From Polytrichum commune (lineage: Eukaryota > Streptophyta > Polytrichopsida > Polytrichales > Polytrichaceae): a DNA stretch of 64,000 bases. A program made the translations under genes and the position numbers. The stretch lies in contig OX485807.1 of the NCBI GenBank assembly GCA_950295325.1, forward strand, positions 11,187,001 through 11,251,000, given 5' to 3'. The notes beneath the pieces are model-generated. The model saw only the letters and a list, made by a program, of their open reading frames with translations. It made no database searches and was not told the DNA's origin. Shown here piece after piece: positions 1,470-23,361 of this stretch; the stretch's first letter is position 1, and each line of letters opens with the position of its first letter.

Positions 1470-1952
1470 AAATTGATGCAAATTTTGGAAGGTTTTATTG
1501 AGCTGTTGTATCGATTTCAATGTGCTGCGCTTGATGATTTTGCTTATCCCATTGCGTACAATCCTAACCTTCAGATTTTTCAGTGGCAGCCGGAAGCAAT
1601 AGCAATCCATTGAAATGTAAAAATGCTTGGAACCTCTGCCGGAGTCTCCGGCTGTAGCTTCGGTAGTACATTAAAAGTAGAGATCATTGATTCAAACCCG
1701 AACACTAGTAAAAAAACAAAAAATCGGTTGGTGTGATGTAGCATAATTTGTCTTGAGCGGGTGAGTTGTGCACGATCTCCAAATTTCATGCAGGTTTCGA
1801 ATTCAAAGAGTATCCTCACACAATCTGAAGAAAAATGGCGTAATGGCAACACTCATCAAGAATACCTAATTGATTTCCACCGCTCTCTTGATTCTTCTGG
1901 GAGAAGACTCCAGTGTGCATGCTTCCTGAACATGCACATTCAATCGATACAG

Positions 1953-1962
1953 CTAAATAAAG
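1953..1962 (+). promoter_or_regulatory. Weakened TATA-like element of left A gene
   Basis: The sequence CTAAATAAAG stands where the right-arm copy has the better TATA box CTATATAAAG, in otherwise similar flanks (CAGCT before it, a GCGGTAGGCTCTTCT phrase after it). It lies about 230 bases upstream of the A start codon. The T-to-A change probably weakens the promoter. The assignment rests on the pairwise comparison and on position. Confidence 0.45.
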
Positions 1963-2191
1963 ACAGCGGTAGGCTCTTCTTGCCAGAGTCGAAGTTTTCT
2001 AATCCTGGTGATCACGATTCCCATAGGTTCCGATCTCCATCTGTCTACGCGTGTCTTTCTCGCAAGGCTAATTTCGCTTTCTTTTAATATGCTGATTGAA
2101 TATGCCGTCACAGTCTCTGTTATAATTTCTGTTTGTGAGCTGATGAAAACTGATTGTTCGTTGCATGTGAAGGTTCAGCTCATCGATCATC

Positions 2192-2680
2192 ATGGTTCAA
2201 TTGCTGCAATCGGTGCTCCGCCTCATGTTACTCCATCTCTTGGGGATTGTCTCTCTCTTGATCACCCGGACGGACGGTCGCGTCATGGAGACGATGCAGA
2301 CCACAGATTTGGGGCTGGTAGGAGCAGGACTAGTTGAACTTAAGTCCAGCTCGGAAAGACGCCGGCCACTCACACTCTGCTGTCTCATTGCTGATTACCA
2401 ATGCGTTCCTACAACCGAATTTCCCTTGCCTGCTCCTTGCGCCGTTTACGGTTCAAGCGGCGACGGAATTCGTGATGTTGACACAGATGCAGGGCGAGGA
2501 AGATTTGTTGGATAGTTGCCGGCCTTGAATATCTGTTGCCCTCCTGGTCTATACATCTGCGTTAAGAGAAATTCAAATGGAACATCTCGCTTGTCTGCCA
2601 GTAGTGCCGCTGCAAATGACCATAATGTGGAGGGCACAGAGGGACCCGGAGGAATCAAGTGGCCCGGTGGCCGTAAGTAA
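2192..2680 (+). pseudogene. Secreted Cys-rich peptide A, left copy, interrupted by an in-frame TAG
   Basis: From ATG 2192 the frame runs 163 codons to TAA at 2678-2680 but is broken by TAG at 2513-2515 (codon 108). As read, the product is 107 residues: a hydrophobic N-terminal signal peptide (core MLLHLLGIVSLL), a basic RRRPL stretch and a Cys motif, LCC then YQC. Beyond the TAG, still in frame, come LPALNICCPPG, YIC and a C-terminus ending KWPGGRK. The right-arm copy keeps that second half, including the stop after KWPGGR, so the frame was probably once continuous. The two CC-x5-7-C modules resemble each other. I do not know this family. A secreted signalling or defence-type peptide is an inference from the signal peptide and Cys pattern only. 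Stop-codon readthrough or splicing around the TAG is possible, but I saw no convincing splice pair conserved in both copies. Confidence 0.6.
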
Positions 2681-3595
2681 ACGTGGAGAATAGCATAAGA
2701 TGTGTTGAGAAAAGTCTTGTAAACATCTGGTTTTAATTCAAGAAAGTTCACGCGCGCACGAGCAAGGTATATCCGTCAAAGCGGTTGGATGCACACGCTC
2801 GCCCGCTCGCAGCGTTCCTTTCTTTCTCTTAGACTCTGTGAGACGAATGCAAGCAGATTTCTTGGAAGTCGACTTGCATGTTGCAAGCTGTACGTGTACA
2901 TGCACATGTTTTTAAACATTTATCTCAATACAATGGAAACTCCTTTCAAGTATGTGAGGGCCGGTCTTGATGAAAAGTATGGATGTAATTGTGAAAGCCT
3001 CACTTCAGTTTCCTTGTCTGCGCTTGTTTTCGATCGATTGTACTAGCCTTATGTGGGGAGACTTGGCCGGCCTTGTACAGTGGCATACAAGCACAAAAAA
3101 TTCATCTGTATGATCAAGGAACGTGTATGCTGTAGGTGCACACATGCCATTCTTCGATCCTATGCTGTACTCCTACATGTTGCAGACACTCTCTGACCCT
3201 GATACATGAAACTAAAAGGTGCTTTTCAAATAGTGAATCAAGCAGCAAGCTCTGCTAATCTCGACGACTAAGGCAACCAGCAGAGTTTCAGTGCAGAAAC
3301 CAATCACGTCCCATCTGGTTATGGGTTGTTTGCAAAAACAGATTTTTGCGAAACATGCATCACGACCCCACTGTCGAGATCTGCCAGGGTCCTTTTGACC
3401 ACATGCGTAGAGGCTACTCACTTGCCGAGACTGCTTGCGAATATCGAAAGGACCAAACGAATCTATACGCGCATGGTAATTACTGTTGCCTCGGTGATCG
3501 AATGGTGATGTTTACATTCGCAGAAATAGCGTTGGCACTTAGTAGGTTATGGTGAAGCTATATCGGTGTTCCTGAATTTCTGGAAGCTACTCATC

Positions 3596-3919
3596 ATGTT
3601 ACTGCAGCTTGTGGGAAGTGTGTCTCTTTTCCTGAGCATGCAGGGGGAATTAGGTCCAGCGGTTTGGGACCCTGCTGGTGGCAACTGGATGATCACTACC
3701 AGGAGGATCATCCGCATGCACTCTCCGGCTGCGGAAGAAACAATCCAGACAACAGATGAGGGGGCCAATGTTCCGCAGTATCAGAGGAGTTCATTCGTCA
3801 TGGTGTGGCCTCCCGTTAGCTTGAGCGCAGTACAAAACCTAGCTCTAAAAGCGTGGCAGAGACGCTTAGGAATTAGCCTTGCTGTTGCAACTGCAGATTT
3901 TCATGATGAAATGACGTGA
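3596..3919 (+). pseudogene. Small signal-peptide protein B, left copy, N-terminally damaged
   Basis: The right-arm copy (B', 16,412 to 16,182) starts with a full signal peptide. The left copy lacks about 60 bases covering that start, so the first in-frame ATG (3,596) falls inside the hydrophobic core (MLLQLVGSVSLFL). Downstream residues agree well: GELGPAVW, MITT, RII and EETIQTT. After ANVP the two copies diverge. The right copy stops almost at once, while the left runs on to 3,919 with residues not conserved in the right arm. The hydrophobic core and the ETIQTT motif are shared with peptide A (ETMQTT), suggesting A and B arose by an older tandem duplication. Function unknown. Probably non-functional. 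Confidence 0.5.
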
Positions 3920-4369
3920 ATACATTTCAGAGACCTATTTTTCATGCATGTAAGATTGGCGCTTCAGCAAACTTCTTTATTTGGGTCCCAAATTGAAACC
4001 CGTTTCATTAGCAAGTCTAGTACAACCGAGTATCCTTATTCCAAGCCAAAAAGATCTAGCATCAACAGAAGGAAAAGGACAGATCCACGCCATGACAAAA
4101 ATATCCATAATATTCGTGGCAACATGGCTCAAACACAAAAAATTCCCTCATTCTATTAGTGCAAAGGAGAAGATCGTCCTCTTGAAGAAGGTTGCTGGTC
4201 TCTCGAATCTGTGCACAGCACAACCAGCAGCCGCCCTCCACTACTCGAACTCGTGTAACCATCGCATTCAGTAGATGCTTGAGAAAAAATGGGAAGACTG
4301 TAACTATCAATGTGAATACACAACTTCTTGTATATTGTTCTGTTGAGATACCTGATGCACTTGTCTACC
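3920..4369. other. Convergent 3' region between left B and left AP2
   Basis: This is the shared 3' side of two convergently read genes and has no coding frame of its own. It matches the right arm around 15,573-16,181. Part of it (about 4,087-4,215, with the phrase GTCCTCTTGAAGAA) recurs near 58,413-58,545, beside the F-box gene. Confidence 0.5.
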
Positions 4370-5355
4370 CTAACCCCTACTTTTCTGGCGTTTTGCCTCA
4401 AGCTGACGCCCAAACGCCTCAATCTCCTCCTTGGTGTACGAGATTTCTGGGAAATTCGTGAGCGCGACAGCACGGGTTTTGTAGAAAATCGCAGCTTTGT
4501 CGAAACACTTCCCCGCCTCCACTTTGTCTTCGAACAACCCAAGGTGAATATTCACCTTGCGGTTCGTGTCCAAATCCCTGTAACAGAACTTCGCCATGTA
4601 CTTTGCCGAGTTTGTCCTGGGGCCGCTGACACCCCGCTTGTCGACCTTCCCTCGCACAAAACCCACTGAGTAGGAAGCCCTAAGGCGCCGGATGTACTCT
4701 TCGATCGGCTCAGTGCTGCACTCCTTCATCTCCTCTATGTCGGGTGCGTAGGTGCTGAGCGGGAAGTTGAGCAGGCACGGCCCCGTCCCGTCCAACCCTT
4801 GGTATCGGCCCAGCTTGATGCAGACCTTGTCGCGGATCTGGGCCGCTTCTTCTTGAGAATCATACATGCCCAGGTACCACTGCCCACCGGTGCGTTTCCT
4901 CCGTTTCGGAATCACGGCATTATTTCGCGGATCCCGCTTTTTCTTTGAGTCCCAGACAAATGCCTCCCAAAACTTGTTTTGCGTGTTGAATGAAACGCCT
5001 TGGAAACCCCATGACTGAATTTGGCTCGGAAACCCCATGACTGTCTCATCTGGTGATTCTGCAAGGAACTCTTCTCCAAATTAACCTCTTGTGGGGCAGG
5101 TTTCTCTAACTTGTCTGCACCACCACTCTCCTCAGCAGAAGCCAGGTCAAGATGTATACCATGAACTTGGTTAATCTTCGTTTGTGAATGTAGGGTCTGA
5201 TGATCTGTGTGCGACAGGACAAGGCTCTGGCTTTCAAGGATCAATGTTAATGGGCCACCATTTGAAGGTCGAATTGGATCGGCCATCTTGGCTTGCATCC
5301 GAACTGCATGAGGTGATTGGGCAGGCCTCTTCCAATTTCTCCTGATTGAGACCAT
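4370..5355 (-). pseudogene. Double-AP2-domain transcription factor, left copy, frameshifted by intron-spanning deletion
   Basis: Two overlapping frames on the minus strand equal the two exons of the intact right-arm AP2 gene. The N-terminal frame (from ATG 5,355, or from the conserved ATG of MADP at 5,286) keeps the NGGP, AEESGG and EKSSLQN motifs. The C-terminal frame (222 residues from ATG 5,038 to the TAG at 4,370) holds both AP2 domains at residues about 12-93 and 135-197, with QWYLGMYDSQEEAAQIRD and HLGLFEDKVEAGKCFDKAA. In the right copy a 0.9-kb intron separates the exons. Here the intron, the end of exon 1 and the start of exon 2 are missing, and the join is out of frame. A direct repeat CAGTCATGGGGTTTCC flanks the join. 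The AP2 half is open throughout, so a shortened protein started at 5,038 could still be made. AP2 proteins act as nuclear DNA-binding regulators. Confidence 0.72.
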
Positions 5356-6339
5356 GACTGAATGGGATTCTCTGAGTGACCTTTACAGGAGCTGGTCGAT
5401 GAAGAATGGAGGTAGACTTGCAGATCTGGCATGAGCCACAACACAAGCAATATGAGAACTTCTGTGGACAACCGCGAAGGAGAATGCGCACAAAACACGG
5501 ATAAACATGAGATGATGGCACGGTTAATTCCTACAGGTGGTGATCACATGGATCCTTCAAGCTCCTGTTAATGTTTCCCCACCAAAAGGTCTCCCTTCAC
5601 TAGGAGAAAGGAGCTTGGAGAGACTCCGGTCCAAATAAATTAGAAAGAAAAGCAAAACATTTAGAAATCACACGTGATTCCAGCAGATTCTTAGGAACTC
5701 CACAACAACATAAGTTGCCTTACAGTTCCAGAACATCAAGCTCCAGGTACCAGAACCCCAGGCCACCAATACAAAAAGTAAGAGCTCAAAGGCTAACACT
5801 GCCCTCCAATACCAAAAGTAACCCTAACAAACAAACCACAAGAGAAGGTGATAGAAGCTCTTGCAACTCCTGAACGTCAACCTGGAAAACGGTGCTCTTA
5901 CCACCACCTCTGCACAAAGTGAAGTCATAAAATGAAGCTCTGCGAAGCACGAGCCTCTCCACTATTACAAAAACCTACAAGTGTACTAACAACAGACCAA
6001 ACAAAAGAAACATTAGGTGATTTGCAGACCTCCACAACATCAAGCTCCTACCCCATCTACTATCCGGACCACTTACAAGTGAAGTCGACACAACCGTGTC
6101 TCGATCCCACAATAGTATGGAAACTTAAGCTGGATTACCAACAAAGATTGCACAAGAGAAGGGGACGCATGCAATTAGCCCTCCAATTGCAGCATAAAAT
6201 CAAGCTTCTACAGCCCCAGATCACCAAGAGAGAGACCTCTCTGGAGCTTCGACGACAACCGAGTGGCCACTCTGCAATTTATAGGAAGCCTGAGCCGGCG
6301 CTGCTGTAATGGAGCCCGTACCTCGGCAGGTGGGAGGAA
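5356..6339 (-). promoter_or_regulatory. 5' leader region of left AP2 locus
   Basis: The sequence matches 12,640-13,500 upstream of the right AP2 gene, including CACTTTGTGCAG and a CTTCTCTTGT phrase, so it is probably 5' UTR with or without introns. No ATG-started frame is convincing. A TATA-like element (see 6,276-6,284) sits near its upstream end. Confidence 0.45.
6276..6284 (-). promoter_or_regulatory. TATA box of left AP2 locus
   Basis: Read on the minus strand the sequence is CTATAAATT, a good plant TATA box, about 900-1,000 bases from the AP2 start codons and just inside the promoter repeat array. In the aligned right arm the same place reads TTCCTTTCCAC, so the box has been lost or moved there. 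Confidence 0.45.
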
Positions 6340-6660
6340 GGGTGGATGAAGCTCATCAGCGTGGATGACTTTCACATTATTCCGTTCGATTATTCTGGAT
6401 GTATTTCTGCCACACCTCAGGGAGTTGAGAGGAAGTGTGAATGGTGTTCATCGATGTGGATGAATTCACATCGCTCCTTCGGATGTAATTTTGTCACATC
6501 CTTGGCAAGTGAGAAAGGAGAGTGGATGACTTTCATCATTCTGGATGAGTTTCACATCTTGGGGCACCTCAGGAGTCCGGAGGTGTGGATGAAGTTCGTT
6601 GAGATTGATTACTTGCACATCCATCAGATGGATGTATTTCCCCCACTTTGTTGGTTTGTC
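6340..6660. repeat. Promoter-proximal tandem repeats, left AP2
   Basis: Several imperfect units contain GTGGATGAAgcTCATC-, GTGGATGACTTTCACAT- and GGATGTATTTC-type phrases. Unit starts are near 6,342, 6,452, 6,520 and 6,585. The palindromic core TGGATGAAnTTCATCCA includes GAAnnTTC-type halves. The same kind of array occurs upstream of the right AP2 gene (12,190-12,600) in mirror orientation, so it predates the duplication. The role is unknown. Reiterated regulator binding sites are one possibility. Confidence 0.6.
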
Positions 6661-7194
6661 ATCATTCAAGCCGCCTGAGAGAGCCAACCCCTTAGTACTA
6701 CTTGTGTTTCCTTCTTGCATGAGTCCGAAGTTCCCTTGTTTGTTTTTTTGATTCACTTTTGCTAGCTTGTAATTTACAACTATGTATTAAATTTAATGTT
6801 GGAGATTGAAGATATAGAAGTTAAATGGGTGAGTCATAACATCATTTCTGCTAGGCACGTAAACACATTCCAAAGTTTATATGACTGTTTGTGAAGTTAC
6901 ATTGGGTGGGAGTTGAGCTTGTTGTTTTTGGAGTCAATATGAATGTCTTACAATTTTTGAATTTTTTTTGATAATTTTTTTTTTTATTGATTTTGGAAAG
7001 TGCACTTTATGTGTATATTTGTTAAAAACTTGTGAGAATTTTTTTTACTAAGCTCATGTACCTTACCAACTTCATTTCTATCAATATGACATGCTTTCTC
7101 TTCTTGTTCTTTCTAAACTTTTGTAGGAATATATAAATATGTTTATGAAACGTACAGTCATTTTGAGTTATTTGATAAAATATGGGATTTAAAA

Positions 7195-7345
7195 CTTGAC
7201 ATGGTAGTGTTGTGCATAAAGAAACACCACTAAAATATTGTATTCAATGTCATCAATTCTATTTGTCTTGCTCAGCACTAATCGTAAACCGCTCATGTAG
7301 TGTCACCAACACTAGATGTTAATCCAACATTATTCATCATTCCTC
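7195..7345. repeat. Dispersed repeat with TAGTGTCACCAACACTA motif
   Basis: The segment with ATTCTATTTGTCTTGCTCA followed by TAGTGTCACCAACACTAG recurs at about 35,455-35,620 in the same orientation and, in reverse, at about 62,835-62,935. It is probably a MITE. Its ends and target duplications are not resolved. Confidence 0.55.
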
Positions 7346-9063
7346 GTACAAACGTTTGGTCACTATAAGGGTATAATTTAGTGAACTCAAACTTGCTCAT
7401 TCCAAGTAAATTTGAAGCACCTTTTCCTTTCCAAGATCCCTAGGGTCATGTTGTGTTACTGTAGAGGGCCATGTGGTTCAACACTTGGATTGCTTAGTTG
7501 TAGTTTCCACATGGGAATTTGTATTTATTTATTTATTTATTTATCACAACATACTTTTTAGAGTTAATGGATGTCACAGGTATACATAGAAGGCCACTTT
7601 GAAATACAATTCAAATATGAAATCACATTTTTATTCTTTAAAATACGTGCTATATAGAAAATTTTGAGTCCCAAGTGGAAATAGTAGGTGCCCATAATTG
7701 ATCATAGATGGTGCTTGAAGCAACGACTCGATGATATGAAAGCAATCCTATGAGTTCAGTGGCTCACAGTTCCAGTACCTCTTGGCATTATCCCAGTCCC
7801 CAACATCACTAAGACTTCATTTGTGTTGTTTATTAAGCAAACCAAGGCATTAATAAATGCCTAGGTAGACTTCACAACAATAATTTGAACCATCTATATT
7901 TGAGTGGTATGTGGTTAGGTATGAATCTAGGAATTGGCAATAAAAAGATACGTATTTGAAACAGATTGGACTCCATGCTCAAAATAGGTTGACCATTTTA
8001 GGTTCAACAATCAACATGATTGGGGGGACCCATATGATCAATTTAATAAGCATGAGAATTTATACTTTGAGAATGAATAATATAATCTTATGAGGCCTAA
8101 AGATTGTGAGGCAAATGGCTACATGCGCATCATGATTTGGATATGCTAATCGGCTTGCATTGATTGCATGTTTCATATCCTAAGAGAAGTGGGTGCAAAG
8201 AGGAAAGTAGTATCCATCTAAGGCACGTCTACCTTAAGGATCTGACTTGGAAGTAGTATTATAATAAGAGTCTATGAAGTTTTGGCATTTGCCAAGTTGG
8301 GACACATGACGAGTGGTGTTTCCTAACATGGCCATTTCACATAGCATTTGATGAATGATCTCCTTCTAAATTGATGTGTTTAGTAGGTCTAAATTCTTTG
8401 AACCCAATTCATCTTGCACCCATTGACTTCTAAGTTTGGACGCGAAGGGCCAACTGATTTCTTTCTTGGTATGTAAATTTAATGTAGTTTTTGAAAAATT
8501 GATGTGAATAAATTCATCTAACGAATGTTATGAGATTACCCAAAATATCAACATGTTATCAAGGGCACCAAAGAACCGAGCTTGTAATTCATAAATGAGG
8601 ATAATGAGCATCATGCATTGAGATGAACACAAGTGGGACAAAGTTGAATGGCCAAGGCTAGACACCCTTGACCCATCTCTTCGAGCTGGCCCCTCACCAA
8701 CATTATTGATGTGAAGGGGGTCTAGTAAAAACAAGCCCCCATAAACTTGTGGTTGATTCATCTCAAGTGGATCTCTTTATACTAATTTGGGACTTTTGAT
8801 GTTAATTTTGAGATCAAATTGTCTTATAGAAAATATCACATGTTATAATATAAGTGCTTACATTTTCACCTTAAGTAATGTTGGTGGGACCCTAACTCAA
8901 ACTGGTGGGTGTCTAGCTTAGTTGCCATTTGCTAATAAGCGATCTGGAATAATAATAAAAGTGTTCCACAGTAAATTTCAATATACATGCAAACTAGGAA
9001 AAGAGATTGTGTTTTAGAAAAAATAAAATGCAACACGATTTCACGTCATAACATTTTAAAGTC

Positions 9064-9518
9064 ATGCAAGAGGCCCTCTCTTTGCCATAACTACACTAAA
9101 TAGGTAGATTAGTGTTAGATGAAGATTAGTGTTAGAGCCAATAGTTACCCAAAACACTAAATGTCACTTGACATTACAATTAGTGTTACAATTTCCTTTG
9201 TCTTTATTTTGCATTGTCAAAGTTGAGTTCCATTAAGTTTAAATTTTGTAATATCAAATTCCTAGCATATTACATTTTCTATGAGGCTCACATATTCTAC
9301 CTCCAATTCTTCATTTGAAGATCTACAAAAAATGTCATCTAACACTAAATGCGCTTTTGTAAATATTCAAAGTTACTAATTGGTACAAATAGTGTTAGAG
9401 TTGACATTTAGTGTTCTAACACTATGAATACAATTGACATTTAGCGTTTTCGTCGACTATTAGTGTTTCCAACACTAATCTACCTATTTAGTGTAGCAAA
9501 GAGGTTTTTCATGCAAAT
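9064..9518. mobile_element. MITE with CTACACTAAATAGG termini
   Basis: Terminal inverted repeats: CTACACTAAATAGGTAGATT begins at 9,091 and its complement ends at 9,496. A looser extension (TGCAAGAGG...CTCTTTGC and its mirror) reaches to about 9,064 and 9,518. The interior repeats TTAGTGTT and ACACTAA many times in both orientations. There is no coding capacity. TA flanks the CACTAAAT core on both sides, so a TA target duplication is possible. Relatives lie at 37,127-37,447 and 60,941-61,307. Confidence 0.72.
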
Positions 9519-9667
9519 GGGAATAGACATGTGGCATGTATTGCATATCACCATGTTCATACTCTTAATGTCGCACCCGTAGATAACAATGCAGCATGAG
9601 GCCTACCACAAATCATACTTATTCTCGGACACAAATTATCACTGCCATTGGGAGCTTAGTGAAGGTC

Positions 9668-9937
9668 CTCGGGGGGTTCACTGGCGAAAAATCGTAGAAC
9701 AACGTGTGCTAAAAAATACGGTCTAATATATTCATTGTAGATAAATTTTGTAAAAAACTTACATATAATATAGGGGGTTTTTAAATATTGAAAAAGGATT
9801 ACATGTAAAATACCATCACACCTTTATTTTGAGAAATACCATACCTTATAATCTTTTCTGCAAGGTAAATAGCCCCCCAATAAATAGGTCCCAAACGCAC
9901 GTGTATGCAAAATATAGGAGGGAGTGAACCCCCCGAG
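9668..9937. mobile_element. Non-autonomous DNA transposon, 8-bp target duplication
   Basis: The element begins CTCGGGGGGTTCACT and ends AGTGAACCCCCCGAG, a 15-bp perfect terminal inverted repeat. It is flanked by the 8-bp direct repeat TGAAGGTC at 9,660-9,667 and 9,938-9,945. An 8-bp duplication fits the hAT superfamily, though family membership cannot be shown without a transposase. Length is 270 bp. A second, longer copy is at 45,658-46,288 in the opposite orientation. Confidence 0.82.
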
Positions 9938-10092
9938 TGAAGGTCTGTGGAAAAATGTTGGATCGACATGACCATCCATGGAATCTGAATCACCAACATT
10001 GTGCCATAATCGATGCACTTGTTTTGATTGTTTGAGGAGTCACACAAGAATAAACTTCAAAAAGATCAATGTGAACTCGTGACAATGCCTCT

Positions 10093-10350
10093 ATGGCCTT
10101 ATCAACTAAAATGAGCCAATTGGGCCGTTACGAGATAATCCTTTTGTCACAATTGATGAGATCTTCCATATTACAATTGATTATTTGCATGGTTTTATAA
10201 ACATGTGTGGGTGTATTGGAATGGTTAAGTTGTATTTTAAGAACCCTCAATGGGTATTATCTCGTACCAACTAGCAATCATTACGTTCCCATCACGTTCC
10301 CTACATTAAATTGAGCAGACCAATTGACTCATTTTAGTTGATAAGGCCAT
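10093..10350. mobile_element. MITE with 28-30 bp inverted repeats
   Basis: Left terminus ATGGCCTTATCAACTAAAAT continues GAGCCAATTGG. The right terminus is its complement with one or two mismatches and ends GGCCAT at 10,350. CTCT abuts both ends (10,089-10,092 and 10,351-10,354), possibly a short target duplication. Length is 258 bp and there is no coding frame. Confidence 0.72.
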
Positions 10351-12189
10351 CTCTTCCCATCTCAACATAACGGCTCCTAGATTCTTCTTCTTTTTAAGCT
10401 CATGGTGTGTATATTTCATTATAGTAAAAAATAACTCGTGCGCATGTCACCTTCAAGTTAATGCCCTTATATACCCAAAACATTCAAGAACATAAAACAT
10501 GAACATTTAGATGATGGAACCACACACAGCCTCAAATGTATGTCCTAGTTCAAAACATAATATCTTTCATGGCTAGAATCTAGATTTTTGCAATTTTTAC
10601 CGGAATATGGACTTATTGTATTCTACAAATGAGAATAATGTGAGAGAATTACCCAAAATATACATCCAAAACGTATTTTCAATAGCTTCATCCCATATAT
10701 ATATATATATACAAAACTCTTTTTTTGTGGGATTTTAGTTTGTTACTAGATTGATTCATCAGAAAATGAAGAAAGATACTATACCAAATCATACTAGTCG
10801 TCTATATGATTTAACACAAAGAAACTCAAATTTGCGGAAAAATTTGCGGAAAAATTTGCCACAAGTTCAACAACTTGTTGTAAAATTGGTTGGGACCCTA
10901 TAGCTAGGAAATTCCTATGCGGAATATGCATTTCATCACTCAAAGTGTTCAATCAGATTGCCCTCTATGGTATTACAAAATGACGCCACTAATCTTAGAA
11001 AGGATAGGAGCCAAAGATCAACGGTTGAGTACTTCAAAATTTTGAGTGCAACATCTTCATTCACGATTGTGAATGATCACATATTATATCAAATGATTCA
11101 TCTACTTGTAACTATAAGAAATTTTATATTAATTTTACATATATTTTTATTCACATATATTTATATAGAGTTCATCACAGGTTTGGAAAAAGAAGAAGCC
11201 TCTCATATAAGTTAACTTGGTAAGGTAGAGGAATGTCAACAATTTTCTAACGGACGTTCAATAATTAACAAATTGACTTAAGTGCATTTGAGATAGGAAA
11301 TCATAATTCCGAGAAATATATGAGTAACATTTCAAAATATCTCGAGATGCTCATATCGACTCCAAAAGCAGCGAGCTCAAATTTCATAAGATTATTCAAC
11401 ATTTAGTGTTTGTTTAGTGGGCCCTCAGAATATTATAGTCGGATGCTTCGAAAGTTGTGCAAGGAGACTCAAATTTTAACTGAGCTCCCAACATTTGACT
11501 GTTATATTCCGAGGGCCCATGTCGTTGAGTCATCTTATGTTTGATGATAATGTCACATAAACTTTGTAATATGCCCGATACAATATGTTGGAGAACATGT
11601 ATTTGAGGTCATAGATAACTCCATCTCCAAACTCCATTTTAGAAAGTAACTGACTTTGTGGGTTGCGGGCTAGCAACAAAATTGAATGTTAACCACAATA
11701 TAAGGTATGTGGGTGTTATTCGGATTGTTTTCCATGTTCTCCAACTTCTACCAATTACATTTACGCAATGAAACTTGTGTTGCACTAGAAACTATACAAC
11801 GAAGCATCACGGAAGCATTAACAAAAATTGGATTGAAAGTCGATCCTTTGTTAATTTAGGTAAGGTTTTCGGAGTGCATGACCGTTAGTTTTTTGTCTGA
11901 AACATAAATCCCCCTAATTTTCACTATCTAGTGTGGAGTAGTGAATATAATTTGAAAACACAAGCCAAACTCTTTTTGCACATACATCTTTAAGGTGTTT
12001 GGTCTTTGATCCTAACCAAACCACAAACCAGTCAAATATAAGGGACTCCATTTAAGAAAAACATCCGAATAACACCCGCATACCTTAAAGAAACCTTTAC
12101 TCATCATGCAAGAAGGGAACGCATGATACCCGGGTCGGCTCTCTCTTACGGTCACAACATTGCACTAATGAGAAACCAACAGAATGAGG

Positions 12190-12600
12190 AAAATACACCC
12201 AAGTCATCCACCGTGATGAAATTCATCCACTCTTCGTCTCCACTCCCGAGGCCAGGGAAAACTCCAAGCCGCTTGACTGCAGCTAATGTGAAAGTCATCC
12301 ACCTTGATGGACAAGATCCCACTCTTCGCAGCTCCCGAGGTCCATGGAAACTACATCCAAGCCGCTGGACGGAGACCCATGTGAAAGTCCATCTTCCTTG
12401 ACGAACTTCATCCATTCCTCTTCCCACCTGCCAAGGTCTGGCGAACATACATCCAAAAGACCCGAATGGGGCCGCTATGATAGTCATCGGCCTTGATGAA
12501 CATCATCCAGCGTCTCCTCACGATGTTGGGGAAACACAATACATCCCAGTGACTGATGTGAAACTTGACCACGTCGATGAACTTCATCCACACTTCCTTC
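12190..12600. repeat. Promoter-proximal tandem repeats, right AP2
   Basis: Units of CGTGATGAAATTCATCCAC, CCTTGATGAACATCATCCA and CGATGAACTTCATCCAC type occur with intervening TGTGAAAGTCATCC phrases, mirroring 6,340-6,660. At least four units are recognisable. Conservation of the array on both sides suggests an ancestral promoter feature. No TATA box is evident at the position corresponding to that of the left arm. Confidence 0.6.
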
Positions 12601-13631
12601 TCCGCTGCGGAGACATGGGCTCCAAATCAGACTCCATGACAGCAGATCCGGCCACTTCCTTTCCACTCTATGATCGAAGCTCCAGGGAGTTCTGTCTCTG
12701 GAGATTGGTGGTGACTGCAGCAGCAAAGCAATTGGAAGCCTGATGGCATGCATCGACTTCTCTTGTCTTGCTGAAATTGTTGGTGATTCACCTTGCTCCT
12801 TCATACTTCGTTCGTCGAGAGGATTATGATCTGAGTACGGAGTTTCAGCATTCCCTCACCTTGCAAGTGGTCTGGATGGTTAATGCGGTAGCAGGTTGAT
12901 GTTGTGGAGTTGTGAGAATCACCTAATTCTCCTTTTGGCTGGGAATCTTGTTAGTACACTTGTCGCTATATTGTATGGGTGGAGAGGGTTATGCTCTCCT
13001 CTAGAGTTGCTCCATGTTAATACAACTACACTTTGTGCAGGGATTGTGGTAAGAGTGCCGGTCCCAGATTGATGCAAGCACTTCCATCACCTTCTCTTGT
13101 GCTTTGTCTGTTATGGTTACTTCTTTCTGTTGGTGGACAGGGTTTGCTTCTGGTGAGAGCACCCTGCAGCTTGATGTTCCGGAATTGTAATTAGGAATTT
13201 TTTGGGTTGTTATGAGTTCCGAATAATCTGTTGGAATCATGTGAGATTGTTGGAGCTCATGCTTTTCTGTCAGTTCCGAAGTGTCCTGCACAAGCTTCAT
13301 TTTATTCTGGTGAGGGTGTAGTTTATGTGGGAAAGGTCATCAACATGACCTTGAAGGATGTATATGTCACCAAGGTGTATGTAGCAATTATCAGTGCCAT
13401 AATTCCATGTCTGTAGACGTTTTTGTGCCAATAATATTTCATCATGTCGCTTGTGCAGAACTTGTGCCGTGCCTCATGCCAGCGATCCGCTAATCTGGAA
13501 GTCTGCCTCAATTACTCATCGAATTGTCTCTTTTAGAGATCACACGGAGGATTCAATCAGTCATAGCTCCAATCAGGCGCAATCGGAAGAGGCCTGCCCA
13601 GCTACCTCGTCCAGTTCGGTTGCAGGCCGAG

Positions 13632-15572
13632 ATGGCCGATCCAGTTCCACCTCTGAACGGTGGCCCATTCACATTGATGCTTGAAAACCAGAACCGCGCC
13701 GTCTTGTCTCACACAGATGTTCCGATCCACAAGGAGATAAACCAACTTTATGGTACACATCACAAGCTGGATTCTGCTGAGGAGAGTGGCGGTGCAGTCA
13801 TGTTAGGGAAACCTGTGCTACAACATGCTTCGGAAGAGAAGAGTTCCTTGCAGAATCAACAGATGGAAGACAACCATAGGGATTCCGAGCCAGATCGGAA
13901 CGATATGGATCCAGCTGGAAAGGTACGTGTGCTGATGTGGATTAAAACAATACGATCAACCCACAGCATTTTAATAATGAGAAATTGCATGTCACTCGAT
14001 CTGATGCAATTACAAGTTCTGTGAAGGAAAAGAACGTAATGAGTAAGGTTATAAGATCTATATATGCACAGCATCCAACTTACTTCCTTGCATATACTGT
14101 GGGAATATTCTTTGTTGAGTTCCAAAATAGGGTCCACGAAGATTTGTACCAAGCAGTCATACAATTCCTTTTTACACAGATGTCAAGTCTAAAGTGCACT
14201 GTAGGAATGCCTATAGTGCACATGGACAACCTCCTATGGCAACCCACATGGACAAAATCGATCTTTCACCTCATAATGTTGTACCTAAGTTCTTAATTAC
14301 TTCGAGACCAAATCCAGATGTCTCAAGTATCCTGCAATTTTGTAAAAGATATCAAGTCTATCCTCACCATTCCAGGAGTCTGTAATGGTGTCCAGGATGT
14401 GACCTACTGTGCAATTCACTCCTGCAAAATTGGTGACCAATTATGTTAAATTATGTGGATCGTTCACATGTGTGGATCCTTCCTTTTGTGTAGTCTGTGG
14501 AATCATACTGCTGTACTTCTTTATAATGTTGATCCTATTTTTAGTCCAGATGTCTCTAGCATCCTGAAAGTTTTTACGTTGAAGGACATCAAGGCTAACC
14601 TCTAATGGTGTCCAGTATGTGGCCTTCCTGTTCAATTCATTACTGCAACAAATGAAGCCCAATATTCTGCATGAATTTGAATGTGTAGGTCACTTCTTTT
14701 GTGAAATCTGTACTGGAATCAGATCATGCTGCAGCAGACTTCACAGCTTTGTGGAAATGCATGCTGTTAATATGTGGTTGAATGTATGGACTGATTTATC
14801 AACACTTGATCATATGTGCCAGGAGATGATGGGGCAATTCGGTAACCAGCACGAAGAAACTGCTGCTGGTGGGAAGCAGGTCAAATTACCTGCACACCAG
14901 AAAGACCCAGAAGGCCGCCGGGGATCCCCCAAATTCCTCGGCGTTTCATTCAACGCTCAAAGCAAGTTATGGGCGGCATACGTCTGGGACCCAACCAAAA
15001 AGCACGGGAATTTGCGAAAAAATCCCGCCATTGCGGAACGGAAGAAATGCACCGGTGGGCAATGGCACCTGGGCATGTACGATTCTCAAGAGAAAGCGGC
15101 CCAGATCCGCGACAAGGCCGTCATCAAGCTCGGCCGACGCAAAGGGCCGGAGGGGACGCGGACATGTCTGCTCAACTTTCCGCTCGAAACCTACGCCTCC
15201 GACATAGTGGAGATGGAATGCGGCAGTGAGTCGACCGAAGTGTACTTCCGGCGCCTCCGGCGCCTCAGGACTTCCTACGCAGGGGGTCCTGTGCGAGGGA
15301 AGGTCGACATGCGGGGCGTCAGCCTCAGGGAAGATTTGGGAAAGTACGTGGCAGAGATCACTTGGAAAGATTCGGACACGAACCGCAAGCTGCATATTTA
15401 CCTCGGCTTGTTCGAAGACAAAGTGGAGGCCGGGAAGTGTTACGACAAAGCTGCGATTTTCTATAAGCGCGAAGCCGCGCGCACGAATTTCCCACACGAC
15501 TCATACACCAAAGAGGAGATCGAGGCGTATGGGCGTCAGCTCGAGGCAAAACTGCAAAAAACTAGGGGTTGA
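13632..15572 (+). CDS. Divergent double-AP2-domain transcription factor (intact, one intron)
   Basis: Exon 1 is 13,632-13,922 and exon 2 is 14,823-15,572. The donor (AAG/GTACGT) and acceptor (TGCCAG/GAG) keep phase 0 and give 346 residues. The start is the ATG of MADP, the first ATG conserved with the left copy; no in-frame ATG precedes it. AP2 domain 1 covers residues about 135-217 (LGVSFN, WHLGMYDSQEKAAQIRDKA, LLNFP) with an insertion like that of the first domain of AP2/ANT-class proteins. Domain 2 covers about 260-320 (YLGLFEDKVEAGKCYDKAAIF, TNFP). The linker with an EEM-like and RRLRR stretch also recalls the AP2/ANT linker. Many positions differ from the consensus, so this is a diverged branch. 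Expected role: sequence-specific DNA binding in the nucleus. The N-terminal 100 residues are low in known motifs. It converges on gene B, and its promoter faces the left copy. Targets are unknown. Confidence 0.82.
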
Positions 15573-16181
15573 CGAAGGTATTGATGATCTCAAAGGTATT
15601 GAAGAAGTGGATTCACATTGACAGTTACAGGTCATCCAATTTATCCCAAGCATCTATATGACGCGATGGTTGCACTCGATTAGTGCCAAGTGGAAGGCGG
15701 CTGCTAGTTGTGCTGTGCACAAATGTAAAATATCAGAAACCCTCTTCAAGAGGGCGATGTTCTCCTGTGCACTAGTGGAATGACAACATATCCCGCACTT
15801 TAGCGATATCATGACCGGGAATACTTCAGATACTATTGTCATGGCGTGGACTTCAATTTCTTTTTTTCCTCATTGCCTATATCTTTCTGGCCTCGAAGAC
15901 GGGTACTAGTACTAGACTCGCTGATGTATTGAGTTTCAATTGGGGACCAACACACAGAAGTCTGGTGAAGCGCCAATCTCAATTGCATGAAAGATAGCTC
16001 TCTGATTTGTATTCACGTCATTTCATCTTTAAAATATGCTTTTGCAACAGCAAGGCTAATTCCAAAGCGTCGATTTCACGCTTTTAGAGCCAGATTTTGC
16101 GCTTCGCACAACCTAACATGAGTACCGGGCCGAAATGCATCTCCGAGCCACCGGGAGGCTAGCATGATGGGATGATCTCCT

Positions 16182-16412
16182 CTAACAATGTGGTACATTG
16201 GCCTCATGTGTTGTCTGGATTGTTTCTTCCTTAGCCGGAGGAGGGTGCATAAGGATAATCCTTCCGGTAGTGATCATCATGTCGCCATCAGCAGGGGCCC
16301 AAACCGCTGGACCTAATTCCACCTGCAGGCTGAGTAAAAGAGATACACTTCCCACGAGATGGAGTAACATGATGAGTACCGCCCAGAGAAATAAGGGTGA
16401 AGCCATCTGCAT
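16182..16412 (-). CDS. Small signal-peptide protein B (right copy)
   Basis: ATG 16,412 gives 76 residues. Residues 1-30 form a clear signal peptide or membrane segment (MQMASPLFLWAVLIMLLHLV then GSVSLLL). The rest includes ELGPAVW, ITTGRII and EETIQTT and ends NVPHC. The left-arm copy shares the middle part but not the start or the end. The hydrophobic core and the ETIQTT-like motif recur in peptide A next door, so A and B are probably tandem paralogues. I do not recognise the family. Entry to the secretory pathway is inferred from the N-terminus only. Lack of C-terminal conservation between the copies leaves open that this one, too, is decaying or has an unseen downstream exon. Confidence 0.5.
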   Translation of the reverse strand: MQMASPLFLWAVLIMLLHLVGSVSLLLSLQVELGPAVWAPADGDMMITTGRIILMHPPPAKEETIQTTHEANVPHC

Positions 16413-17452
16413 AAAATTATAAGGAACGTCGACAGTCGGAGCCAAGTGATTCAGGAACACCGATATAACTTCACCAGAGAAAATAAAAGTACCAAGCGTT
16501 GCAGCCTCTATTCAACAGATGCATAGAGCCCGCGTAGAAGAGCCTATTAAGAGTTTCAACACTAATTCTGCGAATGCAAACATCACCACTCGACCATGTA
16601 GGCATCAGTAGTAGTTGCCATGTGCCTATAGATTTTTCTTTCCTTTCGATTATGGCAAGCAGTGACGGCAAGTGACTAGCCTCGATGCATGTGGTCGAAA
16701 TGACCCTGCACCTCGACGGTGAGATCGTGATGAATGTTTGGAAACAAATGTTTTTCCTAGCAATCTATAACCAGATTTAAGTGAAATACTCTGGAAACTA
16801 TGGTGATGATCAGCTGGGACGTGATTGCTTTCACTTTGATTCTCCGGTGGTTGCCGTAGTCCTCGAGATTAGCAGAGATTGATCCACCGTTTGAAAAGCA
16901 AGTTGACTTACCGAACAAGAGAGTGTATGCAACATCGGGCGACACTGCATAGAATCGGACAATTGTATGTGTGCACCCGAGTAATTAGTGATACAGGATA
17001 GACATTTCTTGCCCTCACTTAAGATAAAAAAATATGTAGCCGTTATAGGCCATTGAACAAAGCCGGCCATGTCTCGCAACACGACTAGTAAAATCGATTG
17101 GAACACAAGCGCAGGCAAAGAAACTGTAGTGAGGCTTTCAGAATTACATCCACATGGCTTTTCCATCAAGCCCGGCCTTCACACACTTGAAAGTATATAT
17201 TTCCAATTTATTAAGATAAACCTTGAGAACATCTACAGCTTGCAACATGCAAGCCGACTTCCAAGAATATGCATGCATTCGTCTCACAGAGATTCAAGAG
17301 AAAGAAAGAAATATGCTGCAGTGCACCTGCGAGCGTATGAGCGCGTATTCGGCTGTTTCGGCGGACACTTGGTCTTGCGCGCGTGCACTGTGTTTACAAG
17401 ATGTTTACAAGACCTATCTCAGCACGTCTATTTCTCTTGTCCGCATTTACAT

Positions 17453-17934
17453 TTACCCACGGCCACCGGGCCACTTGGTTCCTCCGGGACCGTCTGTGCC
17501 CTCAACAGTATGGTCGTTCGCAACGGCACTACTACCGGCAGACAAGCGATATCCTCCATCTGGATTTACCTTTTCGCAGATGTATGGACCAGGAGGGCAA
17601 CAGATATTCAAGGCTGGCAACTTTTCAACAAACCGCCCACCCCTGCGTCTGTGTCGACATCACGAATGTTGTGGCTGCTTAGATCGAAAAGGGCGCCAGG
17701 AGCAGGCAAGGGTGATTCGGTTGTAGCAACGCATTGATAATCACCAATGGGGCAGCAGAGTGTAAGTGGCCGGCGCCTTTCCGAGCCAGACTCCAGCCTT
17801 ACTAGTCCGGCTCCTCCTAGCCCTGATTCTGTGTTCGGCATTGTGCGACCCTCCGTCCGTGTGAGCAACAGAGAGACAATTCCCAAGAGGTGGAGTAACA
17901 TAATGCACAGCACCGCTTGCAGGATTTGAGCCAT
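17453..17934 (-). pseudogene. Secreted Cys-rich peptide A, right copy, 1-bp frameshift
   Basis: From ATG 17,934 the open frame gives 108 residues ending SCQP at 17,608. It has a signal peptide (core MLLHLLGIVSLLL), SERRRPLTLCC, YQC and LPAPG. Compared with the left copy, one base is missing in the stretch after DTDAG. In the shifted frame the homologous second half continues: KLPALNICCPPG, YICEK, RLSAG and a stop directly after KWPGGRG (17,453-17,455). ATG-to-stop length is 482 here against 489 on the left, so the two halves are out of frame by one base. The 108-residue form may still be secreted. Function unknown. A TATA box at 18,191-18,200 and a leader of about 230 bases precede it. Confidence 0.6.
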
Positions 17935-18190
17935 GATGATCGCTGAGCTGAACCTTCACATGCAACAAAGAATCAGATAGACTCATCAGCTCACAAAATA
18001 TAAATTACAACACGCAGCATATTCACCACAGGAAATTAAACAAAGCAGATTAAACCGTGCAAGAAAAAGATGCGCAGATAGATGGAGATTGGAGCCTAAG
18101 GGAAACCTGATCACAAGAATTTGAAACCTTCGACTCTGGTGCAATTGGATCGACTCCTACAGACAGATGCAGAGAAGAGCCTACCGCCGT

Positions 18191-18200
18191 CTTTATATAG
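18191..18200 (-). promoter_or_regulatory. TATA box of right A gene
   Basis: The minus strand reads CTATATAAAG, a good TATA box, about 260 bases upstream of the A start codon. The left copy has CTAAATAAAG here. Transcription would start near 18,165. Start-site position is inferred from the usual 25-35 base spacing. Confidence 0.55.
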
Positions 18201-18670
18201 CTGTGTCGATCTAATGTGCATGTCCAGAAAGCATGCCCACCGGAGTCTTTTCTCAGAAGATTCAAGAAATCGGTGGAAATTAGGAATTCTTGATGAATGT
18301 GCCATTCTGCAATCATTACGCCGGTTTTCTTAAGATTGTGAGAGGTTACTCATTGATGAGTACGAAACCTGCATGAATAGAGATCGTGCACAACTCACGT
18401 TGCATTTCAAACCGGAAAACACGCTCACAATAAAATATGCTAATTACATCAATCGATTTTTGCTTGTTAATTAGTGTCCAGGTTTCAATTGACGGGCCGG
18501 AGATTTCGGCACAGATTCCAAGCATTTACTTCAGAAAGAATTGCTGTTGCAGCTTCCGGCTGCCGCTAACATTGATCTGGAACCTTTGTTACGAATGGTA
18601 TAGGCATTCCATCAAGCTCATCACATGCAAACCGACACGACGGGACAGAAAAGCTTCCACTTTTTGCATC

Positions 18671-20088: not shown

Positions 20089-23000
20089 CTACTTTCTATG
20101 AGCTTTTATAATTCTCCGACGCCACATCGCAGTTGTTGGGTCAAGGCGAAGCTCCCAGGTGGGCCAGTAGTGCAGATCCTGCTTCACCGTCAACACTCTC
20201 GGCTTCCCATTCAAGTGGATCGTTTTGACACGCACAAAAGCCCCATGCTCTAAACCCTGTGTCACGTCCACAAAGTCTTGCAGGTTGGCTGTCGGCTTGC
20301 CGTTGACCTCCACAATCCATTGCAACGCGTACAGGCCGTATCTGTGCACAGGACTCCCATGGCACCAGCGCGCCACATAAACTCCATGCCCTTGTTGTGG
20401 CAAGAATCCCAAGGCTCGCACAGCTGCATGCGGGTCTTGCAAAACACATCCGGCCCAATTAACCATGCGGGTGGTGCCAAACCCGTCTCGGTCATCAATC
20501 CCAACCTGGATGTCAATCTCCTGCCCCTGCCTGAACAGGGTTAGGTCAAGTGACCCCGGTACCTGCCTGCCTAGGTTAGAATTTGAATCTAGAGGAGTTG
20601 ACTTTGTGGCTTCACAAGCAATTTCCACATCCCGAAAACATGTCACTGGTTTCCCACTGATGGCCAGCAACATGTCGCCCTGCTCCAGGATGCGTTCAGC
20701 CCGTGACCCTGCCAAGCAACCCTTCACCCTCAAGACCTGCCGCCGGATGGAGTCTTTCTCCGCGAGTGCCTGGACCCATTTGTCACTGAGACCAAAACTG
20801 CGTGCCTTAGACAACAACGTTGGGTAAAGTTCAGCTTCAAGGATTCGCATTAACGGCATCGATCTCTTGGTGCCATTGATAACCAATTGAGGGCCTCCTG
20901 ATATGCCCCTAACAATAACATCTAAAACTTCTGAAATAGCGTATACAGGTATGCCTCGCACAAACTGGTGGTCTTCTGGTGAGCTGTCCCCGTACTTCAC
21001 TTGGGTTGAGAAACTCCCCCACAATGCTTGCACCCTCCCAACCTCGTCCGCAAGGACACCTGAAAACGTGTGCCCGAAATCTGTGTCAAGCTCTATGACT
21101 TCCATGTTCATGGCTCTATATCTAGGGCAATCAGCGGCAGCAACATTTAAAGCAGCTCCCGGGTTGGTCACTGTCGACTTCCGTGACGTTGCTTGTAAGC
21201 TTCGTGAGAGTCCAACCAAGTACACAGAGTCACCCCTTCTCAGGGGAGGTTCGGTGGACAGAACCGCTGCCTGCACAGCAGCCATTCCCACCTCACCCAG
21301 GGTGGCGGGGTTGTACGCCACAAGTGCATAATTGTGCACAGGGTGTAAAAAAATAACTTCAGCAGGGATCTCCATAGGAAAAGCAGCAAACGACAACATC
21401 ACATCAGAGACAGAGATCGCCACCGTGTTTTTGTCCACTGCCACCAGACCCAGGTCCTTTGAATGGTGCACTATGACACCTGTACCAAAAAAGTGTTGGG
21501 CATGTACACCATCCAGCATAGCTGAAGGTGGGATATGCACTTCCATCATCACCAGAGTGGGCTCTATCACATGCTCTGCCACCGATGAGCTAGTTCCGGG
21601 CGCAATACCACTTTCCTGCCGGGAAGCACTGGTTAGCGTACCATTAATGGTTGGGGCAGGGAGGTCTAAAGGGAGCAGCACCTTGTCCACCTTTTGGCGC
21701 TTTGTTAAGGCCTCCACCGGTATATCATCAGCTGCTGCAGGGTCCTTTTCCTCAGCCTCTTGTTTATGCTCCCCATTGGATGCAGTGACCAAGCCATCCA
21801 GCACATCCAGCCCTGACTTTGCCAGTGATGCCAAGTTGAGATCTATTGATGGTGACACTAAAGGAGGTTCTATGCTTGGGGCGGCTGGCTTAATATCCCA
21901 CAACCCTGTTGCATCATTGCGAGTGTAAATCTGCGGGGGCGCGTACCACTCATGCCGATCAATCGTGACCAATACAGACTTGCTCCTGTGCCTGTCAGCA
22001 TGGCTTACAAATTCCAGAGGCACACGGGCACCCTTCGAAAGCTTAAAGAAAACAGATATGAAGCACTCTAAATTGGGGATTTCCTCACCCGCCATCTTCT
22101 TTATTATCGCGTGTTTGGGTACTCCGGCCCGAGACAGCATGTATCCAGGCTCAGCTACATACACAAGACCACAGACAAAGTGTAGATTGCGTGCTTGCTG
22201 GTAGGATAGGGAGTGGATCACCCCCCCACTGACTTCCAGAAACGTACTGGGGGTGATGGAATGCAAATCCTGAACATCAATGGTGACATTTATAGTTGTG
22301 CCTCCACGCTCCAGCTCCAAGTTTACAGGATTCCCAACGTTGTCATCTAATAGGGTTTCATAAATTAAAAATTGGGTAAGTACCTCCCCATTCGCCCGTA
22401 TGAGCACATCTCCTGGTTCTAACTGCTTGTAAGCTGGGCCACCTGGCACTACTGACTCCACAACAAGCATCCCCGTCTCAGAAGCTGGGCAAGCATTACG
22501 GACCATCTGCTCAGTTTCGCGTTTCAACCCGAGTCGACGGGTCTCATCAAATCCTTTATGAGAGAAAGTCATCTGGAATGTCCCTCGAGGAATAACCACA
22601 GGCTCCCAACCGTCTTTACATAGGTCCTTCTGCTCTTGTAAAAGATTAAGTGCTCGCACGACCCGTTCTAAAGGCAGGAAAAAAGCAGACGCACTCGCAG
22701 ATTTACTACCTGCATTGAGCGCTACCGCCCGACCATGAATATCAATAACTGGAGATCCACTCGACCCTCCCTTTGTTCCCGACGCCGCCTGCATGTAGAA
22801 TGTGTTGAAATCATTGTACCCATCCTTCTTGTAGTGAGGGGCATCACGGTCAAGCCGCGCAAGTGTCCCCGCAAGTATGGAAACTTTTTCCCCACTATCA
22901 TTACCTACAACACGAATTTCTAGACCCACTGCGGCTCCCTCTGGTGCAAGAGGAATTTCATCATATTCAAGAAACTGCACAGCATCAGGGTCAAACCAAA

Positions 23001-23361
23001 GGAATCCAAAGTCATGCACAGGGTCACGATATAGAGGGTACACAGAGATCTCTTCCCTATTTACAAACATGGCTTCCGCCACTATGGGACCTGGCTTCAC
23101 AACATGCCTGTTTGTGAGCAAAATCCCTCGTTTCTTGTCAATTACAAAGCCAGTTGCATAGCTTGCCCCAGCTACTTCTGTGTCAAACGCTCGAGTAGCT
23201 GTAGTTCGGAGCACTACTACAGCAGGAACAACTTTACTAAGTGCTTTGCGCCAGTCCTCTGCACTACCTGCACTGTCAAGAAGGGTTGCATCAAGCTCCA
23301 TTGGCAAACCCATCTTAATAGTCTCCGCGCTCTCCGACTTCATTGTAGGTAGGGAAGTCAT
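20089..23361 (-). CDS. DEG7: DEG7-type serine protease (intact, uninterrupted coding sequence)
   Basis: The frame encodes 1,090 residues from ATG 23,361 (MTSLPT). The open frame extends upstream only through non-ATG codons, and Arabidopsis DEG7 is similar in length. The first trypsin-like domain (about 40-235) carries His86 (LLTNRHVV), Asp117 (VHDFGF) and Ser201 (GTKGGSSGSPV). PDZ-like domains follow near 295-365 and 395-465. A low-complexity acidic linker covers about 490-590. A second, degenerate protease-like domain (about 600-820) begins FFGTGVIV without an intact triad, then two more PDZ-like regions lie near 880-1,070. The C-terminus HYWPTWELR matches the family. This is the known DEG7 layout. 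Arabidopsis DEG7 lies on the stromal side of thylakoids and helps photosystem II repair; that role is assumed here by homology. The absence of introns in 3.3 kb is unusual for this gene. The frame is open with no lesions, so it is probably active. Confidence 0.93.
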   Translation of the reverse strand: MTSLPTMKSESAETIKMGLPMELDATLLDSAGSAEDWRKALSKVVPAVVVLRTTATRAFDTEVAGASYATGFVIDKKRGILLTNRHVVKPGPIVAEAMFVNREEISVYPLYRDPVHDFGFLWFDPDAVQFLEYDEIPLAPEGAAVGLEIRVVGNDSGEKVSILAGTLARLDRDAPHYKKDGYNDFNTFYMQAASGTKGGSSGSPVIDIHGRAVALNAGSKSASASAFFLPLERVVRALNLLQEQKDLCKDGWEPVVIPRGTFQMTFSHKGFDETRRLGLKRETEQMVRNACPASETGMLVVESVVPGGPAYKQLEPGDVLIRANGEVLTQFLIYETLLDDNVGNPVNLELERGGTTINVTIDVQDLHSITPSTFLEVSGGVIHSLSYQQARNLHFVCGLVYVAEPGYMLSRAGVPKHAIIKKMAGEEIPNLECFISVFFKLSKGARVPLEFVSHADRHRSKSVLVTIDRHEWYAPPQIYTRNDATGLWDIKPAAPSIEPPLVSPSIDLNLASLAKSGLDVLDGLVTASNGEHKQEAEEKDPAAADDIPVEALTKRQKVDKVLLPLDLPAPTINGTLTSASRQESGIAPGTSSSVAEHVIEPTLVMMEVHIPPSAMLDGVHAQHFFGTGVIVHHSKDLGLVAVDKNTVAISVSDVMLSFAAFPMEIPAEVIFLHPVHNYALVAYNPATLGEVGMAAVQAAVLSTEPPLRRGDSVYLVGLSRSLQATSRKSTVTNPGAALNVAAADCPRYRAMNMEVIELDTDFGHTFSGVLADEVGRVQALWGSFSTQVKYGDSSPEDHQFVRGIPVYAISEVLDVIVRGISGGPQLVINGTKRSMPLMRILEAELYPTLLSKARSFGLSDKWVQALAEKDSIRRQVLRVKGCLAGSRAERILEQGDMLLAISGKPVTCFRDVEIACEATKSTPLDSNSNLGRQVPGSLDLTLFRQGQEIDIQVGIDDRDGFGTTRMVNWAGCVLQDPHAAVRALGFLPQQGHGVYVARWCHGSPVHRYGLYALQWIVEVNGKPTANLQDFVDVTQGLEHGAFVRVKTIHLNGKPRVLTVKQDLHYWPTWELRLDPTTAMWRRRIIKAHRK

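Follow-up and report, generated by a model that had tools for sequence, protein, structure and literature searches.

The DNA analysed here, a window of 64 kb from the plant Polytrichum commune (C5:11187001-11251000; assembly GCA_950295325.1, contig OX485807.1), carries two arms that repeat each other in mirror image, each with a gene of the AP2 transcription factor family, an array upstream of it and two small open reading frames (ORFs), A and B. Collinear reverse-complement similarity between the arms is far above chance and confirms the mirror-image duplication, and the evidence supports an old, local and single event that placed the copies head-to-head. As a whole, the locus is best explained by one ancient segmental duplication, local and inverted, followed by divergence, a reading to which we assign a probability of about 0.72. 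Accordingly worded as a sequence of events, a block of about 5.3 kb, comprising a divergent double-AP2-domain gene, its upstream array, the candidate peptide gene A and its partial relative B, would have been copied once in mirror image on the plant chromosome, possibly by template switching or break repair. Both arms would then have gained substitutions and small indels along their full length, mobile DNA would have inserted into the spacer after the duplication, and selection, as the depletion of indels suggests, may have held the frames of AP2 exon 2 and A for much of the time. Today the right arm would still hold an AP2 gene of two intact exons and the left arm one that is decaying or shortened, and the right B would have decayed; AP2 would presumably be a transcription factor and A a secreted peptide, both of an ordinary kind, with no joint action implied. 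The genome searched comprises 408 Mb in 64 contigs, of which C1, C5, C6 and C7 measure 42-78 Mb each; C1-C7 are probably seven chromosomes. PsaA of the plastid contig had its top scores with PDB entries 8htu and 6l35, from the moss Physcomitrium patens, among 60 of 83 matches, in keeping with a moss. The overall layout is as follows:

1475-6730, plus strand: left duplication arm of 5.26 kb, running collinearly with 18670-12090 of the other strand
6731-12089, no strand assigned: A+T-rich spacer of 5.4 kb, in which copies of mobile elements lie
12090-18670, minus strand: right duplication arm of 6.58 kb, collinear with the left one

Self-comparison of the window by BLAST returned three minus-strand matches in collinear order, spanning 1475-6079 versus 18670-12860 in total (1475-3534/18670-16557 at 71.2%, 3579-5005/16387-14934 at 75.9% and 5019-6079/13895-12860 at 69.0% identity), and in a global alignment the homology reaches further inward, as far as about 6730 and 12090. 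The global alignment spans 5026 columns with 76.5% identity, compared to 40.4-40.7% when the right arm was shuffled (n=3), and the Kimura two-parameter (K2P) distance between the arms was 0.287 in a first alignment of 4917 columns. An inverted-repeat search of the window placed 23 of the 25 listed pairs (30 were reported) on the arm diagonal, the off-diagonal pairs being I23, in which the two arrays match out of register, and I24, a cross-match between A and B. The right arm also carries a stretch of 1.04 kb, mostly AP2 intron, that has no counterpart in the left arm. When two stretches of arm DNA were searched genome-wide, they gave three and two matches, every one inside the window; judged by these two stretches, the arm DNA is two-copy and not a dispersed repeat family. 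A dispersed element carrying the block was thus rejected, since these stretches of arm DNA were found in two places only.

An assembly artefact, in which one locus was falsely doubled, is next to impossible. The arms diverge by 23.5% with separate indels in each, their similarity falls to 47% at 1300-1499, at the arm edge or beyond it, and only three matches to the window (88-363 bp), none of them in the arms, came from the 6 kb that precede it. A falsely doubled haplotype is ruled out in the same way, because about one base in four differs. The spacer has a GC content of 0.34-0.38, compared to 0.46-0.48 in 2 kb steps inside the arms, and harbors at about 9086-9496 a repeat of ~410 bp that is 98-99% identical to at least 39 places on C1-C7, a lower bound given that the best 40 of 13161 candidates were scored; this repeat is a young, high-copy element. 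Within the arms, the following ORFs were recognised:

2192-2515, plus strand: left ORF A, 107 amino acids, with a hydrophobic N-terminus
3596-3919, plus strand: left ORF B, an open frame of 107 amino acids
4370-5038, minus strand: homologue of AP2 exon 2 in the left arm, an ORF of 222 amino acids, 68% identical to the right copy
5050-5286, minus strand: homologue of AP2 exon 1 in the left arm, as a frame translation, with a stop at about 4912
13632-13922, plus strand: right AP2 exon 1, 97 amino acids, from a predicted splice model with a phase-0 donor, AG|GTACGT
14880-15572, plus strand: right AP2 exon 2, 230 amino acids, with the double AP2 region
16182-16370, minus strand: remnant of ORF B in the right arm, open for 62 codons and followed by TAG in the aligned frame
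17608-17934, minus strand: right ORF A, 108 amino acids, 71% identical to left A

A and B lie on the plus strand in the left arm and on the minus strand in the right, and AP2 lies on the minus strand in the left arm and on the plus strand in the right; with the orientation mirrored in this manner, the AP2 5' ends point inward. An earlier sequence-only reading of this DNA had described arms of 5.3 and 6.6 kb with outer ends at about 1470 and 18670 around a centre of 5.4 kb, and these coordinates are correct. The mirrored order A, B, AP2 with facing AP2 5' ends, also part of that reading, is borne out by the alignment and the strands, and the self-comparison, which it had proposed as a dot-plot, shows that the arms match along the whole unit and not at one locus only. 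As for a duplication of three genes, the order is indeed kept, but B is full-length and open in the left arm only.

The right AP2 exons join in phase 0 to give 327 amino acids under the predicted splicing, and this copy still looks like an intact two-exon gene. Its exon 2 matched the Pfam AP2 family at 34.0 bits (cut-off 33.3) and a longer right ORF at 32.5 bits, below the cut-off, with two stretches of the right copy matching at a permissive E<=10. The left exon-2 ORF had no Pfam match at E<=10, and neither window copy was among the 107 matches listed in a whole-genome Pfam AP2 search. Compared to solved structures, the right copy matched WRI1 best (PDB 7wq5, E=1.2e-13) over residues 67-222 of 242, covering the end of the first AP2 unit and the second, and an alignment of the window copies with four relatives from the same genome displays two AP2-like units and a linker. 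The two units, the linker and the WRI1 match liken the window copies to the AP2-like subfamily (ANT lineage, WRI1), for which an excerpt of PMC6361745 names two AP2 domains and an insertion in the first as marks of the ANT lineage. They differ from that subfamily in being highly divergent, the right copy barely at the Pfam cut-off and the left unmatched. In the left copy the intron is absent, the frames of the two exons fail to join, and a 26-bp tandem duplication at 4987-5043 spans the joint where the intron is absent; this copy appears to be in decay or to yield no more than a shortened protein. In a tree of six rows the window copies paired at 100/100 with branches of 0.24 and 0.22, and at sites where the relatives L001, L002 and L004 agree (L003 left out), six were changed in the right copy and eight in the left.

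ORF A had no Pfam match at E<=1. The maximum hydropathy (15-residue) was 2.44 and 2.68 in its two copies, which have a Cys-Cys...Cys group in common and differ in the remaining Cys as well as in their C-termini, the right copy showing a 1-nt gap against the left one shortly before its end. We consider A a candidate secreted peptide. A second exon of A in the frame 2525-2680 just downstream was rejected, with a ratio of nonsynonymous to synonymous substitution rates (dN/dS) of 1.16 and no Pfam match; this frame overlaps part of a 28-nt perfect run between the arms. A and B have a segment of ~55 bp in common around the hydrophobic N-terminus, scoring 39-57 in four comparisons, and the top scores of 100 shuffles were 27-33, which makes B a probable old, partial copy of A.

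Upstream of both AP2 copies, and starting 1.04-1.06 kb from their start codons, we found a repetitive array:

6340-6640, plus strand: degenerate array upstream of left AP2, with four matches to a palindromic GATGAA.TTCATC-like site
12180-12600, minus strand: degenerate array upstream of right AP2, with five site matches at four places

In the right array, a single palindrome accounts for two of the five matches, one on each strand. Allowing up to 3 mismatches, all nine window matches to GTGGATGAAGTTCATC fell in the arrays, at 6342-6600 and 12215-12591, compared to 1.04 expected, and none of 100 shuffles reached nine. Both arrays are internally repetitive and match each other, and the promoter arrays that the sequence-only reading had placed upstream of the AP2 copies are thus real. 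A strict two-site pattern had a single match in the 408 Mb genome, in the right array, leaving the left array unmatched, and its reversed control had no genome match. The genome-wide DNA search overlooks weak matches: with the right array as query it recovered the query itself only and missed the left array, and it therefore says little on arrays elsewhere. As judged from their sequence, the arrays are regulatory candidates and nothing more. One could imagine a locus-specific regulatory array, duplicated with AP2, to which a dimeric factor or the double-AP2 protein itself would bind and which would keep the AP2 pair and A under one regulator, with one AP2 now shortened and possibly acting as a dominant-negative partner; we regard this scenario as quite improbable.

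When the six frames were ranked by the length open in both arms, AP2 exon 2 (215 codons) and A (109) came first, followed by AP2 exon 1 (104), an antisense frame (92) and B (82). Between the arms, identity was 81.4% for ORF A, 87.2% just downstream of A, 85.8% for the shared part of B, 82.5% for AP2 exon 2 and 79.7% for exon 1. The stretches outside the ORFs, taken from the outside to the centre, were 79.6, 79.1, 73.5, 70.3 and 66.0% identical (73.9% overall). The interpretation given by the sequence-only reading is right in part, but selective retention is not supported: ORFs, at 79.7-87.2%, are better kept than the remaining arm DNA overall, which speaks for that reading, but hardly better than the DNA beside A, where 79.6% and 79.1% come near to the identity of A itself. 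A further comparison was of indels, with the expected numbers in a MAFFT alignment derived from non-ORF arm DNA at 1475-4372. AP2 exon 2 had no frame-breaking indel in 622 columns compared to 9.6 expected (P 6e-5), ORF A none compared to 4.5 (P 0.011), and AP2 exon 1, with its last bases excluded, none compared to 3.6 (P 0.028). Under five other scoring schemes the depletion held for A (P<=0.004), the shared part of B (P<=0.028) and AP2 exon 2 (P<=6e-6), with a few frame-breaking gaps present in these three in three of the five schemes. AP2 exon 2 also had no stop in 206 aligned codons, compared to 3.1 expected in permutations. For A, dN/dS was 0.48 over 96 aligned codons, a value as low being reached in 3.8% of 500 permutations, and for B 0.57 (16% of permutations as low). 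Since indels are depleted despite these and the AP2 ratios, the frames appear to have been maintained while the proteins changed fast, and selection may well have kept the frames of AP2 exon 2 and A for much of the divergence.

Several observations weigh against this reading. In the MAFFT alignment, the absence of frame-breaking indels from the shared part of B, compared to 2.8 expected, had a P of 0.058, and AP2 exon 1 showed no significant depletion under the five other schemes (P 0.17-0.69). The dN/dS values of AP2 exon 2 and exon 1 were 0.71 and 0.83, with 21% and 62% of permutations as low, and the changes in exon 2 were spread over the codon positions as 35/36/38; AP2 dN/dS is thus not clearly below 1, and constraint on it would therefore be weak or asymmetric. 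AlphaFold2 models of the AP2 copies, built from two-row alignments, had a mean predicted local distance difference test score (pLDDT) of 49 and 47, too low to be informative; Foldseek, run with the low-confidence model of the right copy only, gave no match at E<=0.001 and hence no AP2 fold. Moreover, the four relatives enter the AP2 region in one open frame, so the intron difference could be a gain in the right copy or a loss in the left.

One alternative is that every ORF in both arms is dead and that the open frames reflect limited age. The dN/dS values of 0.48-1.16 over the five stretches, the equal change of codon positions in AP2 exon 2 and the disruption of left AP2, right B and the C-terminus of A fit pure neutral decay, but 206 codons free of stops and 622 columns free of frame-breaking indels in AP2 exon 2 do not, and we find this alternative unlikely. 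At the other extreme, AP2, A and B could function jointly and have been retained in both arms for that reason. Fewer frame-breaking indels in A, the shared part of B and AP2 exon 2 than in non-ORF DNA, the higher identity of ORFs than of non-ORF arm DNA overall, and the array kept upstream of both AP2 copies would agree with such a co-selected module. On the other hand, B is stopped in the right arm and left AP2 is disrupted, the DNA directly beside A is nearly as conserved as A, A and B were found nowhere else, and the four AP2 relatives manage without A or B nearby, making the module decidedly unlikely. The retained three-gene module of the sequence-only reading is not supported, given the TAG in right B and a left AP2 with unjoined frames and no Pfam match. 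Joint copying is in itself no sign of joint function, because one event copies neighbours whatever their function; resting as it does on a single event, the module claim finds no support except that AP2 and A have each kept a frame.

The relatives elsewhere in the genome were found by a protein search in which six frames were read and the best candidates scored, so that weak or intron-split relatives may escape. At E<=1 it gave two matches for A, both in the arms, and three for B, in the arms only, with one TAG within the right-arm match. The AP2 protein had 11 matches, namely the two window copies, four double-domain relatives and five weaker ones. The four relatives are 35-39% identical over about 205 residues and lie on C1 and C6. 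Around them we fetched 5-5.5 kb of DNA each, and up to 25 kb for the C1 pair, and comparison of this DNA with both copies of A and left B gave nothing below E 0.6. The claim that the AP2 gene and the peptides travel together is consequently not upheld, A and B having matched in these arms only and the four relatives lacking them in the DNA fetched. Two of the relatives, at 40.366 and 40.399 Mb on C1, form a separate, younger inverted duplication without A or B in the fetched stretches:

C1:40365495-40370127 / 40400371-40395359: second inverted duplication (L003, L009, L002, L010), with the AP2 genes tail-to-tail

Its arms are 94-97% identical with about 25 kb between them. This family of AP2 genes has therefore been mirror-copied at least two times, once without A and B, and one may ask if it has a tendency to be copied in inverted form. 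A further fragment of the family lies at C7:34419128-34419707 (L005) and has three stops in one of two matched pieces; it is likely a pseudogene.

Inverted arms may also be transcribed by read-through into a hairpin whose paired arms feed silencing or a young MIRNA gene. There is plant precedent for this, as excerpts of the literature describe the head-to-head VIM4-VIM2 inverted repeat as producing small interfering RNAs (PMC13213937) and inverted duplication as a recognised origin of MIRNA genes (PMC3237417). The window resembles VIM4-VIM2 and PAI of Arabidopsis Cvi, as presented in the excerpt of PMC13213937, in being an inverted pair of paralogues, head-to-head as in VIM4-VIM2. The difference is that VIM4-VIM2 and PAI reportedly form near-perfect stem-loops (PMC13213937), whereas here identity between the arms is 76.5% and a spacer of 5.4 kb separates them, with nine perfect runs of at least 21 nt between them, the longest being 28 nt. 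The arms are not a near-perfect inverted repeat and are poor hairpin material. The window had no Rfam match at gathering scores, and no known RNA or tRNA was found at the thresholds used. We therefore consider a hairpin or small-RNA locus very improbable.

An ancient inverted duplication has a parallel in opposite-strand pairs among tandemly arrayed genes, which are likewise neighbouring paralogues on opposite strands that arose by local duplication (excerpt of PMC2547482). According to the same excerpt, the parallel arrangement accounts for ~80% of Arabidopsis tandem arrays and ~88% of those of rice, leaving about 20% and 12% that are not, so that an inverted pair belongs to a minority yet is ordinary; asymmetric deletion is discussed there as a stabiliser of long inverted repeats. 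The window differs from such pairs in that a multi-ORF block and an upstream array were copied and one gene copy was reshaped. It offers a clean case of a multi-ORF block mirrored, with one AP2 copy seemingly intact and the other apparently dismantled, and shows how readily 'module retention' is inferred from a single duplication.

Outside the arms, the window contains a single open frame of 1142 amino acids at 20089-23517 on the minus strand, with trypsin-like and PDZ domains, which we take to resemble a DEG7-type protease. Kelch-repeat and F-box ORFs at 53733-57103, also on the minus strand, are perhaps one F-box/Kelch gene. A tandem array with a unit of ~100 bp and 5.4 copies occupies 39034-39564. 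Two elements at 36802-37130 and 48693-49018 match each other in both orientations, indicating that each is probably palindromic.

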